Source of the DNA: Candidatus Woesearchaeota archaeon
GTDB taxonomy: Archaea; Nanobdellota; Nanobdellia; Woesearchaeales; DSVV01
Length of the DNA stretch: 9,298 nt
Direction of reading: 5' to 3'
Assembly: GCA_023267795.1 (NCBI GenBank)
Contig: JAHFMP010000029.1
Location: forward strand, 1 to 9,298
Part shown: positions 1,900 through 8,092 of the stretch, piece by piece
How positions within the stretch are numbered: position 1 is the first letter of the stretch
Layout of the letters: every line of letters begins with the position of its first letter
Made by a program: the position numbers and the translations under genes
Notes under the pieces: generated by a model
What the model saw: the letters and a program-made list of their open reading frames with translations, nothing else
Databases searched by the model: none
What the model was told of the DNA's origin: nothing

Positions 1900-1937
1900 A
1901 AAAATCCTCCAAGAGCATGGCGAATCTGGGGATTTTT
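1900..1937 (-). terminator. Hairpin with flanking T runs after the helical-protein gene
   Basis: AAAAATCC (1900-1907) pairs perfectly with GGATTTTT (1930-1937). After one bulged base CC pairs with GG, and after another AGA pairs with TCT, leaving a loop of about 10 bases. On the minus strand the stem ends in TTTTT and overlaps the stop codon of the helical-protein gene, as a terminator would. The plus strand also ends in T residues, so it could act in both directions. If it terminates, the ATPase gene needs its own promoter in the remaining 55 bp. Confidence 0.5.
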
Positions 1938-2383
1938 TACATGAATGATTTTATGTATTCCATATATCTTTTCAAATTTTTATAAAATTCTGTGACTTTA
2001 TCAATATGCACATGATATTCACCTTCCTCCAATTGCGCAATTAAAGTAACGTGTCGTCTATATTCATTAATACTGTTGTATTCTGCCTTGCTTAATGCCT
2101 TGAGGAGAATATAAAATTCTAAAAAATCAATTAGTTGTTGTTCTGCTGCATACAGCTGTTTGAGTTCTTTGCATTTCATCATTGGCTGTATAGGAAGTGT
2201 TTTTATCTTTCCTGTTTGTTTTGCATGCTCTCCAAGCGCATTCATCATGCATTCTGCTGTGGTAATCATGCGCTCAATAACATTTTTGAGCACATCTGTT
2301 GTTCGCGTATATTTGAGACTCACATAGATTAAATGATCTACTCGTTTTAGCTCTTCACTCGCTTCTGCCACACGATCCTGCAT
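1937..2383 (-). CDS. Conserved-looking all-helical protein of unknown function
   Basis: 148 residues, not recognised as a named family. It appears entirely alpha-helical and soluble, with no signal peptide and no membrane segment. A first long helical stretch runs roughly 3-56 (heptad-like Leu/Ile/Val spacing, containing DHLIYVSLKYTRT), a second 70-100, and a third 103-147. A Pro/Lys-rich linker near 60-68 separates the first two. The fold could resemble small helical-bundle families such as HEPN or MazG-like bundles, but the catalytic signatures of those families are not visible (no Rx4-6H for HEPN). The ATG is supported by a TATA-like box 27 bp upstream (leaderless). It precedes the MinD-like ATPase on the same strand, so a functional link is possible but unproven. 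Confidence 0.75.
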   Translation of the reverse strand: MQDRVAEASEELKRVDHLIYVSLKYTRTTDVLKNVIERMITTAECMMNALGEHAKQTGKIKTLPIQPMMKCKELKQLYAAEQQLIDFLEFYILLKALSKAEYNSINEYRRHVTLIAQLEEGEYHVHIDKVTEFYKNLKRYMEYIKSFM

Positions 2384-2406
2384 TCTATAATGATTATATA
2401 TTCTTG

Positions 2407-2414
2407 TTTATATG
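2407..2414 (-). promoter_or_regulatory. TATA box of the helical-protein gene
   Basis: On the minus strand this reads CATATAAA, centred about 27 bp before the ATG at 2383, predicting a leaderless transcript. A second AT-rich match at 2393-2403 sits too close to the start. Between this box and the divergent plus-strand promoter, 2426-2490 is very T-rich on the plus strand (several runs of six to eight T) and contains no gene. Confidence 0.4.
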
Positions 2415-2496
2415 CTTTGTGTGGCTTTTTTGTTTTTTTGTTTTCTTCTTCATTACCATTTCGTACTTATTTTTTGTTTTTTTATTCACTGATTTC

Positions 2497-2545
2497 CGTA
2501 AAGTTTATATACTCATTTTTCGTAAAAATAAAATATACATATTTT
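2497..2545 (+). promoter_or_regulatory. Promoter of the small-protein cluster, built on an imperfect tandem repeat
   Basis: Two adjacent copies of a 24-25 bp unit begin at 2497 and 2521. Each starts CGTAAA, has ATATAC in the middle, then a CAT/ATTTT tail. The first copy contains a good TATA box, TTTATATA (2504-2511), preceded by purine-rich BRE-like bases. It predicts a start near 2534 and a leader of about 33 nt. The second copy would start transcription inside the ribosome binding site, so it is more likely a regulatory or relic copy. The leader carries GAGGTG (2557-2562) five bases before the ATG. Confidence 0.5.
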
Positions 2546-2567
2546 ACTAAAAAAAAGAGGTGTTCAT

Positions 2568-2738
2568 ATGGCGATTAAGGATGCAAAAACTGTGGCTACC
2601 AAAAAAGCTTCTGGTGGTGTCAAAGCAACAGCAAGTGCAGCTGCACGTGCAAAACATGGCGATAAAACAGGCGGTGACCAAATGTCTCATGAACAACAAC
2701 TTGGTGTCAAAGGCTCTGGTTTGAAAAGACGATCTTAA
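2568..2738 (+). CDS. Small basic Gly/Lys/Ala-rich protein 1 (56 aa), unknown function
   Basis: Not recognised. 56 residues with 9 Lys, 3 Arg, 8 Gly and 10 Ala but only 4 acidic residues, giving a net charge near +8. It has no aromatic residue and no Cys, so it should be disordered or fold only on a partner such as nucleic acid. The sequence runs from KKASGGVKATASAAARAK, histone-tail-like, through GDKTGGDQMSHEQQ to a terminal GLKRRS. The ATG is preceded by GAGGTG at ideal spacing, which matches the archaeal anti-Shine-Dalgarno end. It is the first of four similar tiny genes. It shares the short strings TVAT with protein 2 and VKAT with protein 3, hinting at a loose common origin. Hydrophilin-like or nucleoid-binding roles are guesses. 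Confidence 0.75.
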   Translation: MAIKDAKTVATKKASGGVKATASAAARAKHGDKTGGDQMSHEQQLGVKGSGLKRRS

Positions 2739-2784
2739 ATTTTATTAAAAAATATTCAAAATAAAAAACTAAAAAGGTGATTGT

Positions 2785-2937
2785 ATGGTAGGAAAAGATT
2801 ATGTCAATAAAGTGGGATCCACTGTCGCAACACAGGGTGCAAAAGGAAAGAAACATGAAAATGATTTTCCTGAAGGATCGGGAAAAACATTTAGTAGCGA
2901 AAAAAGACAATTTGGTGGTTTGAGGAAAGCAAAATAA
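2785..2937 (+). CDS. Small basic Gly/Lys-rich protein 2 (50 aa), unknown function
   Basis: Not recognised. 50 residues, with 9 Lys, 2 Arg and 8 Gly against 5 acidic residues (net about +6). The first half contains KVGSTVATQGAKGKK, the second ENDFPEGSGKTFSSEK and a terminal FGGLRKAK. It has no hydrophobic core or membrane segment. A GGTGAT Shine-Dalgarno sequence (2776-2781) sits three bases before the ATG, and the gap to gene 1 is 46 bp of AT-rich DNA without a convincing separate TATA box, so co-transcription is likely. The same composition and short basic C-terminus occur in the neighbouring small genes. Confidence 0.75.
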   Translation: MVGKDYVNKVGSTVATQGAKGKKHENDFPEGSGKTFSSEKRQFGGLRKAK

Positions 2938-2939
2938 TA

Positions 2940-2970
2940 GAGAATTTTGCGCATAAACAGTAAAGTTCTC
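2940..2970 (+). repeat. Inverted repeat between small-protein genes 2 and 3
   Basis: GAGAATTTT (2940-2948) can pair with AAAGTTCTC (2962-2970) as nine RNA base pairs, one of them a G-U, around a 13-base loop. It begins two bases after the stop of gene 2. It has no T run directly after it, so an mRNA stability or processing element is more likely than a terminator. Confidence 0.4.
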
Positions 2971-2999
2971 AATAATTATTGTGAAGGAGGTTTGAGATA

Positions 3000-3173
3000 A
3001 TGGCAACAGCAGGAAAAGTAAAGGCAACAGTCGGTGGTAGCGGAGGAAAAAGTTCATTTGGACTTATTGCAAAGAAGAGCAGTGAAAATCGTCGAGCTGC
3101 TGGGCAAACCAATCAAAAGACAGGAATTGTTGCAGCAAAAATTGCTCAAGGAAAAAAAGTAGGAAAACAATAA
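3000..3173 (+). CDS. Small basic Gly/Lys-rich protein 3 (57 aa), unknown function
   Basis: Not recognised. 57 residues containing 10 Lys, 2 Arg and 10 Gly with a single acidic residue (net about +11), the most basic of the four. It begins MATAGKVKATVGGSGGKSS, continues through FGLIAKKSSENRRAAGQ and ends IAQGKKVGKQ. It has no Cys or Trp and a single aromatic (Phe20). The start is firmly set by GGAGG (2986-2990) nine bases upstream. An 18-bp hairpin-rich stretch separates it from gene 2. The next small gene begins one base after its stop, so the two are probably translated in a coupled way. Confidence 0.78.
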   Translation: MATAGKVKATVGGSGGKSSFGLIAKKSSENRRAAGQTNQKTGIVAAKIAQGKKVGKQ

Positions 3174-3174
3174 T

Positions 3175-3363
3175 ATGGTTTTCAAAGCAAAGTCAACAGG
3201 CAGAAAAGCAGATGATTCTGTAGGATTGTTTGACAGTCGGCTTAGAAAAGCTCAGGCATCAGGATTGACAAGAGGCACTGCATCTGTTTCTTCAGGGAAA
3301 ACAGGAAATGTCAATAAACAAAAATATGCCCTTAATTCAAGAGGTAATCTTGGATATAAATAA
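3175..3363 (+). CDS. Small basic Gly/Ser/Lys-rich protein 4 (62 aa), unknown function
   Basis: Not recognised. 62 residues with 8 Lys, 5 Arg and 8 Gly against three Asp (net about +10). It opens MVFKAKSTGRKADDS, has a possible short amphipathic helix VGLFDSRLRKAQ, then a Ser/Thr/Gly-rich stretch, and ends SRGNLGYK. The ATG lies one base after the TAA of gene 3, which argues for translational coupling. It has only a weak AGGAAAA upstream, inside gene 3. It is the last member of the cluster; T-rich DNA and a new promoter follow before the methyltransferase-like gene. Confidence 0.75.
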   Translation: MVFKAKSTGRKADDSVGLFDSRLRKAQASGLTRGTASVSSGKTGNVNKQKYALNSRGNLGYK

Positions 3364-3376
3364 AATTTGCAGTAAG

Positions 3377-3384
3377 TTTTAAAA
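3377..3384 (+). promoter_or_regulatory. TATA box of the THUMP methyltransferase-like gene
   Basis: TTTTAAAA is centred 27-28 bp before the GTG at 3408. This spacing implies a leaderless mRNA beginning at the GTG and explains why no Shine-Dalgarno sequence is present. Confidence 0.45.
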
Positions 3385-3388
3385 GCAT

Positions 3389-3407
3389 CTTCTTTTCTTT
3401 TGTTTTT
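3389..3407 (+). terminator. T-rich tract after the small-protein cluster
   Basis: A pyrimidine tract with 15 T in 19 bases, including runs of 4 and 5, follows the last small gene by 25 bp. Archaeal RNA polymerase terminates at U-rich tracts without a hairpin, so this may end the cluster transcript. It overlaps the promoter-to-start region of the next gene. Confidence 0.3.
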
Positions 3408-4547
3408 GTGAAAGAAAAAGAATATCTTGCATTTGCGTTGACATTTGTTGGTTTTGAAACTATTGCACAACAGGAAATTCATGAATTGCTCTCAAAAAAA
3501 GCAACTATTGAAAAAGGTATTGTACAGTTCTCTGCAACTGACAAAGAAATTGCGGAACTTTGTTATAGAACACAAGCATTGCGCATTGTTTGTAGACAAC
3601 TTGCACTGTTCTCTTTTTCACATTCTCTTGATGATTTTAAAAAACAAGCAAAAGAGCATTTGAAATTCAGTGATCTTTCTCTTTTTTCTGAAAAAACCTT
3701 TCGCGTGAATTGTGACAGAGCAGGACAGCATGATTTTACAAGCAACGATGTTGCAGCAGCACTTGGAGAGCTTTTTTTGGACATGCAACCAAAAACATCT
3801 GTGCGCCTTGTCAATCCAGAACTTTTTGTGTATTGTTTGATAGAGGATTCTCAGTGTTTTATCGGCATTAACTTTGCCGGATTTGATCTCTCCAAGAGAG
3901 AATATAAAATTTATAATCAGGCAAACACACTCAATGCAGCATTTGCATATTGTGTTGTTCGCTATGCCGGCTACACAGGCAAAGAAGTTCTTCTTGATCC
4001 TTTGTCTGGGGTCGGTTTATTGCCTATAGAAGCATCATTATTTGCAACAAAAACTTCTCCAAGGTTATATCAAAAAGATCAGTTTGCATTTCAGAGATTT
4101 TTCAAGATCGATCTCTCTTCTTTTGACAAAGAGCCTGATGCAAAGAAAGCAAAACAACTTTCTTTGACAGGCTATGATGTTCATTTACGCAACATGGAGG
4201 CAGCAAAAAAGCATGCAAAACTGTGCAACGTTAGCAAATACGTGACATTTGCTCGTGGAGATATTGAGTGGATTGACACAAAAGTTGATGAAAAATCAGT
4301 TGATATTATTGTATGTCAAGCTCCTGTTGAAGGTCGTGCTGTTTCTGAAAAAGAGCTTGAGAAATTTTACAAAGAATTCTTTTATCAATTGGAGTTTGTT
4401 TTGAAGGATAGTGGAAAAATGATATTAGTCTGCCTGAAAACAGCCCTGTTGAAAAAAGTGTTGCAGTATTTTACTATTGTGGATGAGCATCTGGTCTATC
4501 AGGGCGAGCAGGAATTTGTGCTGGTGACGTTGAAGAAGAAAAAGTAA
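3408..4547 (+). CDS. THUMP-domain RNA methyltransferase-like protein with altered catalytic motif (Trm14/TrmN-like)
   Basis: 379 residues from a GTG start that opens KEKEYLAFALTFVGFETIAQQEI, the usual family N-terminus. Residues 1-60 form the ferredoxin-like domain and about 60-155 the THUMP RNA-binding domain. The linker 'GFDLSKREYKIYNQANTLNAAFA' (159-181) is typical of Trm14/RlmL-type proteins, which make N2-methylguanosine in tRNA or rRNA. The Rossmann domain follows: DPLSGVGLLPIEA (197-209) is the SAM-binding motif I, GYDVHLRNMEAAKKHA (255-270) gives the acidic ribose contact Asp257, and GDIEWI (284-289) contacts adenine. Motif IV, normally (T/S)NPPYG, reads CQAPVEG (303-309): the Asn and Tyr needed for base amine methylation are absent, and motif I lacks the usual FCGSG. 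The protein may be catalytically dead or altered while keeping RNA binding. The frame is intact and the sequence shows no sign of decay. Confidence 0.82.
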   Translation: MKEKEYLAFALTFVGFETIAQQEIHELLSKKATIEKGIVQFSATDKEIAELCYRTQALRIVCRQLALFSFSHSLDDFKKQAKEHLKFSDLSLFSEKTFRVNCDRAGQHDFTSNDVAAALGELFLDMQPKTSVRLVNPELFVYCLIEDSQCFIGINFAGFDLSKREYKIYNQANTLNAAFAYCVVRYAGYTGKEVLLDPLSGVGLLPIEASLFATKTSPRLYQKDQFAFQRFFKIDLSSFDKEPDAKKAKQLSLTGYDVHLRNMEAAKKHAKLCNVSKYVTFARGDIEWIDTKVDEKSVDIIVCQAPVEGRAVSEKELEKFYKEFFYQLEFVLKDSGKMILVCLKTALLKKVLQYFTIVDEHLVYQGEQEFVLVTLKKKK

Positions 4548-5284: not shown

Positions 5285-5616
5285 GAAATAGGACAATACT
5301 GTGTTATCGGAAATGCTGCTGAAATGCAGTGTTGCTGAGGAAAGTCCGTCCACTACACAAAGATAGACAGCCTCTGAAAGAAGGAATGTGAAAACATTGG
5401 CAACCACACAGAAATGAACTCCTGCAGAATAATGGAATGATGCATGCGACATTTTTGGCAACAAAAACAAGCTGAGCTGCTGACGTCTTTTGCAGTGAAG
5501 ATGAAACAGTGAGCCCCTGTTAGTGCAAGTCGGATTTCGACGCTAAGTGGAATACACAAACACTTGTTCATGTAAAGTGAAAGTGCACAGAAGACGGCTT
5601 ATGATTGTCCTATTTC
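5285..5616 (+). ncRNA. rnpB: RNase P RNA
   Basis: This is the catalytic RNA of RNase P, which removes 5' leaders from pre-tRNAs. The 5' and 3' ends form a perfect 13-bp helix P1: GAAATAGGACAAT (5285-5297) with ATTGTCCTATTTC (5604-5616). Inside lie the conserved core pieces in the right order. GAGGAAAGTCC, the 5' strand of P4 (CR I), is at 5337-5347. CCACACAGAAA is at about 5404-5414, in the CR II/III area of archaeal RNAs. AGTGCAAGTCGG is at about 5523-5534, in the CR IV area, and ACAGAAGACGGCTTA, the 3' strand of P4 (CR V), is at 5587-5601. A small GTCG/CGAC hairpin follows CR IV. The length of about 332 nt is normal for archaeal type A. A TATA box and a T run flank it exactly. Open reading frames across it are chance. 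Confidence 0.93.
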
Positions 5617-5660: not shown

Positions 5661-5834
5661 ATGGCACAAAACAGAATATCAATGCCGTCTGGAACAGGTG
5701 GCTTAGTACGCTATTTTGACGACTACAAAAGTAAAATTAGCATTCAACCAGTTCATGTTATTGTTTTTATTATCCTTGTTATTCTTGTTATTATTCTTTT
5801 GCAGATATTTGGTGTTTCTCTTTTGGGATTTTAG
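5661..5834 (+). CDS. Preprotein translocase subunit Sec61-beta (archaeal SecG)
   Basis: 57 residues, the usual length. The cytosolic N-terminus has the family signature: MPSGTGGLVRYFDDYKSKISIQP (8-30), matching the P-G-T-A/G-G-L-x-R-Y/F pattern of archaeal and eukaryotic Sec61-beta. A single Ile/Val-rich membrane helix spans about 32-50, with the C-terminus short and outside. It is the small non-essential subunit of the SecYEG translocon in the cytoplasmic membrane and binds next to SecY/SecE. The ATG is supported by a TATA box 26-27 bp upstream (leaderless). The NAC gene follows nine bases after its stop, so both are very likely one transcript joining nascent-chain handling to secretion. Confidence 0.92.
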   Translation: MAQNRISMPSGTGGLVRYFDDYKSKISIQPVHVIVFIILVILVIILLQIFGVSLLGF

Positions 5835-5843
5835 GTGATTTCT

Positions 5844-6200
5844 ATGATTCCTGGCTTTCCTGGAAAAATTGATCCACGCATGATGAAGCAGGCAATGAAA
5901 CGCATGGGAATTGATGAAACTGAACTTGCGGATGTACAGGAAGTTATCATTCGTTTTTCTGACAAAGTGCTTGTTGTTGCACCTGCACATGTCTCAAAAG
6001 TCAGCGCAATGGGAAATATCAGCTATCAAGTGAGTGGTACAACTACTGAACGATCACTGGATACAAAACCAACTATTTTTGAAGAAGACGTGCAGACTGT
6101 GATGGAACAAACAGGTGTTGATGAAAAAACTGCACGCTCTGCAATTGAAGCTGCAGAGGGAGATTTAGCTGCTGCAATTTTGGAATTGGAGAAAAAATAA
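5844..6200 (+). CDS. Nascent polypeptide-associated complex protein (archaeal NAC-alpha homologue)
   Basis: 118 residues. The N-terminus MIPGFPGKIDPRMMKQAMKRMGI is the typical basic ribosome-contacting segment of archaeal NAC. The NAC beta-barrel domain follows at about 27-75 (VQEVIIRFSDKVLVVAPAHVSKV and the strand NISYQVSG). A UBA domain closes the protein at about 81-118 (FEEDVQTVMEQTGVDEKTARSAIEAAEGDLAAAILEL). Archaeal NAC is a homodimer that binds ribosomes and emerging chains. The ATG at 5844 is preferred over the GTG at 5835 because GGTGA (5834-5838) lies five bases before it and it matches the family start. It is the second gene of the Sec61-beta unit. It ends 11 bp from the convergent PRC-barrel gene. 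Confidence 0.93.
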   Translation: MIPGFPGKIDPRMMKQAMKRMGIDETELADVQEVIIRFSDKVLVVAPAHVSKVSAMGNISYQVSGTTTERSLDTKPTIFEEDVQTVMEQTGVDEKTARSAIEAAEGDLAAAILELEKK

Positions 6201-6591: not shown

Positions 6592-7305
6592 ATGAAAAAA
6601 CTAAAATATACGCAAATTGAAAATGTTGTTCTTGTAGGAACCTCTCATATAGCAAAAGAAAGTGTGGATAATGTTGCTGCTGTCATTGATCATTTTCACG
6701 CAGCAGGATCATGTGTTGTTGGTGTTGAACTTGATAAACAGCGTTTTTATTCTCTTGTGTCTGGTCAAAAGCAGGCAACAATTTTTTCTTTGGAAAACAT
6801 CAAGCGCTTTGGTTTCAAAGGTTTTGTTTTTGCAATGCTTGCCTCTATTTTTACAGAAAAACTTGCAAAAGTAGTTGGCGCAAAACCAGGAGATGATATG
6901 CTCTCTGCAATACGCACTGCAAAAAAATGTGATTTAGTGATTGCATTGCTGGATCAACCTATTCAAATTACATTGCGCCATTTTTCTCAGAAATTAACAT
7001 GGAAGGAAAAATGGCATTTTTTTGTTGATATTTGTGCAGGCTTCCTGTTTCCTAAACAGCAAATAAAAAAATATGGTTTGGAAAACATTGATCTTCGAAA
7101 AGTTCCACCAGAAACACTTATTCGAAAGCTGTTGTTTTATGTGAAAGAGCGGTATCCAAACATTTATACTGTTTTGATTAGTGAACGAAATCAGTATATG
7201 GTGCAGAAGATTCGGAAGTTTCAGCAAAAATATCCTGAGAAAATCATTATTGCTGTTATTGGTGCTGGACATGAAGAAGGAATGAAGAAACTTTTAGAAA
7301 ATTGA
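6592..7305 (+). CDS. TraB/PrgY-family protein, short soluble form
   Basis: 237 residues with the TraB landmarks in order. GTSHIAKESV (16-25) has the first conserved GxxH. VELDKQR (45-51) has the conserved Glu and Arg. PGDDMLSAI is at 99-107. LLDQPIQITLRH (119-130) corresponds to the usual 'DRDIxxTLxR' but with Gln in place of the Arg, and LISERNQYM (195-203) has the conserved Glu-Arg. GAGHEEG (224-230) is the second GxxH. The family is predicted to be related to Tiki/EreA metal-dependent hydrolases or proteases; PrgY reduces pheromone activity in enterococci. Many archaeal members are longer, with a C-terminal membrane domain; this one stops right after the catalytic part. The ATG is set by the divergent promoter. 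A membrane protease gene follows under its own promoter. Confidence 0.85.
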   Translation: MKKLKYTQIENVVLVGTSHIAKESVDNVAAVIDHFHAAGSCVVGVELDKQRFYSLVSGQKQATIFSLENIKRFGFKGFVFAMLASIFTEKLAKVVGAKPGDDMLSAIRTAKKCDLVIALLDQPIQITLRHFSQKLTWKEKWHFFVDICAGFLFPKQQIKKYGLENIDLRKVPPETLIRKLLFYVKERYPNIYTVLISERNQYMVQKIRKFQQKYPEKIIIAVIGAGHEEGMKKLLEN

Positions 7306-7354: not shown

Positions 7355-8092
7355 ATGGTCAATTATGCAGAACTCAAATATAGAATTCGTGATTTTTTTG
7401 TTTTTTCTCCAAGAGAAATGAGAGATCTTTTTATTGCAATGGCTGTTATTACTTTTGCTTTTGCATATGATGATGGAAGAGAAACATTTGAACTAGCATC
7501 ATGGGCTTTTAATTATCTTAAAATATTTTTTATTGTTGCTCTCGCTTTCTTTTTTCATGAATCAGCACATAAAATAATGGGATTGTCTGTCGGAATCAGA
7601 ACAGAATACAAACTCTGGACATTGGGGACATATATAACTATTCTCTGCACCTTTTTATTTCAGGGAAAAATTGTTATTATTTTGACAGGTGGAGTTGCTT
7701 TTTACCACATGGTCATCCAGAGATTAGGTCATTTTCGTTACGGACTTAATCTTCTTTCTTGCGGGCTTATTGGTGCAATAGGTCCATTGGCTAATCTTAT
7801 CATGGCAACACTTTGGGAAACATTGGCTCTCAATGGCATTATGCCTGATTTTTTTCACCAAATGACTTTTATTAACTTGTACTATGCTGTCTTTTCCATG
7901 CTTCCTTTGCCAAATCTTGACGGCATCAGCCTGTTTTTTGCTTCTCGAATGAATTATGTGTTTTTCTTTAGCATATTACTTTGTTATATTGCACTCTTTG
8001 TTTTAGGTGTCTATTCTCTCATTTGGGCACTTATTTTAGCAGGAATTATGTGGGCCCTTTATTGGTATTATGTTGAGCAAAAAATCAGGTGA
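7355..8092 (+). CDS. Site-2-type intramembrane metalloprotease (peptidase M50 family)
   Basis: 245 residues and strongly hydrophobic. Membrane segment one is at about 24-38. The zinc-binding HESAH (68-72) lies in the next segment (55-72), giving His68, catalytic Glu69 and His72. GPLANL (143-148) is the family's conserved turn, and the third zinc ligand sits in LPLPNLDG (184-190, Asp189), the equivalent of N/LxxPDG. Two more hydrophobic segments end the protein (about 202-242). The order HExxH, GPxxN, LDG identifies an M50 protease, which cuts membrane helices of regulators or leftover signal peptides. There is no PDZ domain, as in other minimal archaeal forms. It has its own promoter. The next gene begins within six bases of its TGA behind a GGTGAT ribosome binding site that overlaps this stop, so the two are an operon. 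Confidence 0.9.
   Translation: MVNYAELKYRIRDFFVFSPREMRDLFIAMAVITFAFAYDDGRETFELASWAFNYLKIFFIVALAFFFHESAHKIMGLSVGIRTEYKLWTLGTYITILCTFLFQGKIVIILTGGVAFYHMVIQRLGHFRYGLNLLSCGLIGAIGPLANLIMATLWETLALNGIMPDFFHQMTFINLYYAVFSMLPLPNLDGISLFFASRMNYVFFFSILLCYIALFVLGVYSLIWALILAGIMWALYWYYVEQKIR

Follow-up and report, generated by a model that had tools for sequence, protein, structure and literature searches.

Introduction

Tandem small orphan genes are common in archaeal viruses, and leaderless bacteriocin clusters of the aureocin A70 type combine tandem hydrophobic or amphipathic cationic peptides with adjacent transport or immunity genes. Hydrophilins are defined by a hydrophilicity index > 1.0 and a Gly content > 6% (quoted in PMC7448490). 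Woesearchaeota are stated in PMC6136690 to carry histones and Alba. Function-unassigned families confined to an archaeal lineage are described by Meheust et al. (2022, PMC9258230).

In this study, we followed up an array of four tiny genes, S1-S4, in a Woesearchaeota-like archaeon (assembly G000) and compared it with G008 and G009, the two other members of the genus examined. The array shares with the families of Meheust et al. the lack of an assigned function and the confinement to an archaeal lineage. Those families are described in that source as near-ubiquitous in major groups, whereas the array is tiny and was found in one genus among the genomes searched. Archaeal histones and Alba are likewise small, and nucleic-acid binding may be a role common to them and the array. 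Unlike them, the array proteins have no family match or confident predicted fold, and the genus carries histone and Alba as separate genes. The locus appears to be a clean case of a young, taxonomically restricted gene array. Its families are mostly unrelated by sequence, yet alike in charge, size and composition and kept adjacent, which makes the array a good test of lineage-specific functions in tiny basic disordered proteins. It also illustrates a kind of gene that is easily overlooked when length cut-offs or single-sequence searches are used. We found no account of such an array in the open-access papers searched, and absence from print is not claimed.

Results

The window is the whole stretch of DNA analysed (9,298 nucleotides), an entire contig of G000, which has 995,997 bases in 151 contigs and is 89.39% complete. 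Four ORFs, all tiny and basic, lie in a row on the plus strand at 2568..3363 (Table 1). The coordinates and lengths given by the original prediction were exact. Recomputation returned the predicted net charges of about +6 to +11 and 8-10 Gly per protein (13-18%), with Cys and Trp absent from all four, and the S3 and S4 genes are indeed one base apart. Strong Shine-Dalgarno sites had been claimed for the whole array; this is true for three of the four genes, since S4 has a weak site only, inside the 3' end of the S3 gene. Similarly, short basic C-termini are present in S1-S3, and S4 ends in GNLGYK. The label of low complexity holds only mildly, the whole-protein entropy being 3.4-3.8 bits across the five groups described below.

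Table 1. Positions of the features of the window discussed in the text
Feature	Coordinates	Strand	Remarks
Divergent 148-aa protein, function unassigned	1937..2383	-	Synteny anchor
BRE/TATA-like element CGTAAAGTTTATATACT, upstream of S1	2497..2513	+	Aligned across three genomes
Shine-Dalgarno-like GAGGTG of S1	2557..2562	+	
S1 (group I)	2568..2738	+	56 aa, net charge +8, 8 Gly
Shine-Dalgarno-like AAGGTGA of S2	2774..2780	+	
S2 (group II)	2785..2937	+	50 aa, net charge +6, 8 Gly
Shine-Dalgarno-like AAGGAGG of S3	2984..2990	+	
S3 (group IV)	3000..3173	+	57 aa, net charge +11, 10 Gly
S4 (group V)	3175..3363	+	62 aa, net charge +10, 8 Gly; best conserved member of the array
TATA-like element AAGTTTTAAAAG, before the methyltransferase	3374..3385	+	Identical string in G008 and G009
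THUMP/UPF0020 RNA methyltransferase, Trm14-like	3408..4547	+	Synteny anchor outside the array
Archaeal RNase P RNA	5309..5610	+	Rfam RF00373, 106.2 bits
Short protein followed by a presumably NAC-like protein	5661..6200	+	C-terminal half of the short protein hydrophobic
Protein presumably resembling the TraB/PrgY family	6592..7305	+	
Membrane-type protein	7355..8092	+	HESAH string

The shared promoter region that had been proposed is borne out by a promoter-like string upstream of S1, with an alignment of (C/T)AA(A/G)(G/T)TTTATATACT across the window, G008 and G009. A separate TATA-like string, AAGTTTTAAAAG, lies approximately 23 bases ahead of a possible methyltransferase start in each genome. 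Based on the archaeal promoter consensus, we take both strings to be promoters. The second one probably gives the methyltransferase its own promoter, so the array is probably a unit of its own and the methyltransferase can be transcribed separately. The methyltransferase scored 173.3 bits against NCBIfam Trm14_Arch, below the 280-bit cut-off. Counting the window's own, 10 of 11 family genomes had a match to the 148-aa protein on the other side, with identities of 86% in G009 and 79% in G008; its Pfam match to Med15_fungi (E 0.0022) is below the curated cut-off.

Homologues in the same tandem arrangement, which the original prediction had proposed to look for, were found in G008 (five genes) and G009 (four genes). 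In all three genomes the array is located between the 148-aa protein and the Trm14-like methyltransferase. The genes form five orthologous groups, I (S1), II (S2), III, IV (S3) and V (S4), and membership varies between species. All five are present in G008. G009 is without II, for which no orthologue was found there in a profile search of 11 family genomes. In the window, groups I, II, IV and V are present, and a profile search of the window's own assembly returned no match for III. Identities to the window copies in G008 and G009 were 49% and 61% for group V, 37% and 39% for group IV, and 42% and 33% for group I, respectively; group II showed 46% in G008. The orthologues were located via synteny from the methyltransferase, which was matched in 10 of the 11 family genomes. 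Single-sequence searches of these 11 genomes with S1 and S3 returned only the window's own genome, plus one weak S3 stretch (E 0.32). They thus missed the copies of the same genus, which indicates that little can be concluded when a single-sequence search with such a protein is negative. Frame-breaking differences, regarded in the original prediction as a sign against real genes, were absent, as all compared orthologous frames are open in the three genomes. On this comparative sequence evidence, S1-S4 are real, conserved genes.

The relations between the groups were assessed by hhalign profile comparison with 100 column-shuffled controls per pair and with reversed controls. The III-IV pair scored 31.9, and none of the 100 shuffles was as high; III and IV therefore read clearly as paralogues. 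The I-III pair scored 21.4 over 17 C-terminal columns, again with no shuffle as high; the two groups share a basic tail, GLK(K/R), at the C-terminus. GL(K/R) was present within the last 12 residues in all but one of the 13 group I sequences and in all 13 of group III, in one of two in group II, in one of three in group IV and in none of the 16 in group V. Sequence-specific residues are also conserved, namely GHTL and a Q in III and a GL(W/F)xxR region in V. The IV-V pair scored 14.2, with 4/100 shuffles as high, and the six pairs not named here by score had 14-75/100. The short strings TVAT (S1 and S2) and VKAT (S1 and S3), once read as hints of loose paralogy, do exist in the proteins; the paralogy itself did not hold up, because shuffles equalled the II-I score of 11.2 in 5/100 cases and the I-IV score in 30/100. 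Groups II and V appear to stand apart from the remaining groups, although remote relations could be missed because the profiles of II and IV comprise two and three sequences.

An ORF filter (45-75 aa, ATG start, net charge ≥ +5, Gly ≥ 12%, hydrophobic residues ≤ 25%, no Cys) was applied to the window and to 400 kb of relatives' sequence. None of 2000 dinucleotide-preserving shuffles of 2381-3408 yielded any plus-strand ORF that passed, against four observed, so the array is no chance occurrence; as the filter was chosen after the window had been inspected, it measures rarity and is no independent test. In G008 (140 kb), 4/252 ATG ORFs of 45-75 aa passed, all of them the orthologous array, of which the group V copy fails by its Gly content. 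None passed among 200 such ORFs in G003 (180 kb) and 77 in G002 (80 kb).

The ratio dN/dS was computable for nine of 11 small-protein pairs, the two other pairs being saturated. Neutral values had been named as a mark of false genes. Eight pairs were below 1 (0.23-0.59) and one, group I between the window and G009 over 41 codons, was 1.00; these ratios are rough, since all finite dS values are at least 0.77. The neighbours gave 0.23 for the methyltransferase, 0.10-0.19 for the MinD-like protein and 0.04-0.06 for the 148-aa protein (one pair saturated). The dN of the small proteins was 0.40-0.80, higher than that of the methyltransferase (0.32, one pair), the MinD-like protein (0.14-0.21) and the 148-aa protein (0.08-0.14). 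The small proteins thus diverge more rapidly than any of these three neighbours.

A database search with S1 returned S1 itself and one relative. With the group V profile, 15 proteins were obtained at E ≤ 1, and with the combined I/III profile 28 at E ≤ 10, the window and genus members included in both cases. The group V alignment contains the 15 database proteins and the G008 copy (16 rows). The I/III alignments hold 26 of the 28 proteins; P0031, which copies P0030 with a 5' extension, and P0041, which is closely related to P0042, were omitted from that of group I, which includes eleven database sequences beyond the G008 and G009 orthologues of S1. Equal sizes of the source contigs suggest two further contigs that carry I, III and V together (270,143 and 1,249 bp) and another two that carry III and V (6,863 and 1,063 bp). 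Where a name is given, the database relatives are called 'hypothetical protein' only, and most of those of I, III and V could derive from other genera.

Groups I, III and V were searched by profile over 352 genomes of the order and group II over the 11 family genomes, so statements on range hold more firmly for I, III and V than for II and IV. Strong matches were obtained in three of the 352 genomes for group V (3/3 genus members), two for group III and three for group I, all of this genus. The group II profile gave two strong and two weak matches. Among 371 genomes drawn from the phylum, a sample that may have lacked G009, only the window's own and G008 matched group V at E ≤ 0.01, and a group V scan of genome contigs gave one locus, the G009 contig. 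Further matches in the order at E ≤ 0.1 (12 genomes for V, 4 for III, 4 for I) were short and weak. Altogether, 23 weak matches outside the genus (S3 1, V 12, III 4, I 4, II 2; E 0.005-0.33) were judged to be chance, and 11 of them contain stops. With no convincing match outside it among the genomes searched, the array is apparently restricted to one genus and apparently young.

At 14 loci of other genera, some clipped at contig ends, no such array was present within approximately 1.5 kb of the 148-aa protein or the methyltransferase. In the other genera of the family, a second protein of approximately 155 aa stands beside the protein of approximately 150 aa in 7/7 loci, and a MinD-like ATPase gene lies beside the latter in 6/7, the seventh locus ending there. 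The 155-aa protein occupies the place that the small-protein array has in this genus.

Each of the 47 aligned sequences carries a net charge of +6 to +11 and 8-24% Gly, and the charge stays positive while the sequences diverge. The highest 15-residue mean hydropathy among them was 0.79, and thus neither a signal peptide nor a membrane segment is to be expected. By the charge-hydropathy boundary, all 13 proteins from the three genomes are predicted to be disordered. AlphaFold models of V (window copy; mean pLDDT 53.2, pTM 0.18) and III (G009 copy; mean pLDDT 54.1, pTM 0.16) had no residue at 70 or above; this low confidence may come from shallow alignments (16 and 13 rows, respectively) instead of disorder. 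In Pfam, the single match to S1-S4 at E ≤ 1 was PLRV_ORF5 to S4 (E 0.09, below the curated cut-off). The array proteins had no meaningful match in NCBIfam or PADLOC and none better than E 0.3 in PHROGs. A defence system was rejected, with no PADLOC match. In the PDB, the sole match was eL43 for group V at E 0.4, and groups I, III and IV had none at E ≤ 10; these four groups showed no supported relation to a solved ribosomal chain.

Discussion

Charge, predicted disorder and basic tails lead us to favour, at a probability of about 0.4, the reading that S1-S4 are disordered basic chains acting together as nucleic-acid-binding accessory proteins, with RNA as the most probable target. The four genes would share a single transcript and their products would be abundant, the latter being a guess that draws on the promoter-like and Shine-Dalgarno-like sites. 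The Lys/Arg/Gly-rich chains and their basic tails would contact phosphate backbones, and the proteins would serve RNA chaperoning or compaction beside histones and Alba, not instead of them. Many functions are compatible with such a charge and Gly content, and no family, fold or solved structure tied any group to nucleic-acid binding in Pfam, NCBIfam, PHROG and PADLOC or, for I, III, IV and V, in the PDB. The conserved residues of III and V suggest a defined partner, and that partner could be a protein.

Simple replacement of nucleoid proteins is excluded, since the genus carries histones and Alba alongside the array. Histone (PF00808) was matched in G008 and G009 and Alba (PF01918) in all three genus members. 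S1-S4 themselves had no Pfam match to either family at E ≤ 1. A histone match was obtained in 10/10 family relatives versus none in G000, which is 89% complete; the missing match is probably missing sequence. An extension of the preferred reading, which we regard as doubtful, is a kit of the genus's own, in which five tiny, mostly unrelated, basic disordered proteins under one promoter would form a condensate or package RNA or the nucleoid beside histones and Alba; nothing comparable would exist in other genera.

The conserved specific positions in III and V would also suit small cofactors of a specific cytoplasmic machine, such as the ribosome or tRNA processing, that dock via short linear motifs, for example the GLK(K/R) tail. 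The Trm14-like methyltransferase adjoins the array and RNase P RNA lies further along. We consider this reading unlikely, because the methyltransferase is preceded by a conserved TATA-like element of its own, no array was present near it in 7/7 loci from other family genera, and restriction to a single genus counts against a core machine part.

Less likely still are lineage-specific stress protectants of the hydrophilin or LEA-like kind, which would shield proteins or membranes by solubility and flexibility. Like these, the array proteins are small, Gly-rich (8-24%), hydrophilic and predicted to be disordered. The original prediction had named hydrophilin-like protection as one possibility from composition; taking a hydrophilicity index > 1.0 as GRAVY < -1, hydrophilin membership stands for S2 (-1.08) and fails for S1 (-0.77), S3 (-0.50) and S4 (-0.74), while the Gly contents of all four exceed 6%. 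Thus, the definition covers 1/4 window proteins and 4/13 over the three genomes. Furthermore, no sequence relation was found, and protection does not need the uniformly positive charge that the array has throughout.

A role as exported or host-directed peptides, such as cationic antimicrobials or symbiosis peptides, would explain the rapid evolution and the genus restriction. The array is cationic, tandem and fast-evolving, with variable gene content, and it shares several small cationic peptides in tandem genes with the multi-peptide leaderless bacteriocin clusters. The array is far more hydrophilic than these, its top 15-residue hydropathy falling short of the hydrophobicity of the bacteriocin type. 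No hydrophobic leader or segment was present, and inspection by eye of the genes immediately beside the array showed no transporter or immunity gene, so we hold such a function to be improbable. Descent from a virus or other mobile element, which small tandem orphan genes recall, is very improbable, because group V was absent from viral contigs (one scan, made with group V only), the S4 query found none in phage records, the best PHROG matches were as weak as stated above, and the chromosomal position is fixed in three species.

The remaining observations concern the rest of the window. A sub-threshold Rfam match to CrcZ was recorded. The membrane-type protein weakly matched the M50 peptidases (E 0.0022, below the cut-off), and G008 contains an ORF similar to it, as well as one similar to the protein that we take to resemble TraB/PrgY. 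The short protein with the hydrophobic C-terminal half is followed by a presumably NAC-like protein, and the order of these two is identical in G008.
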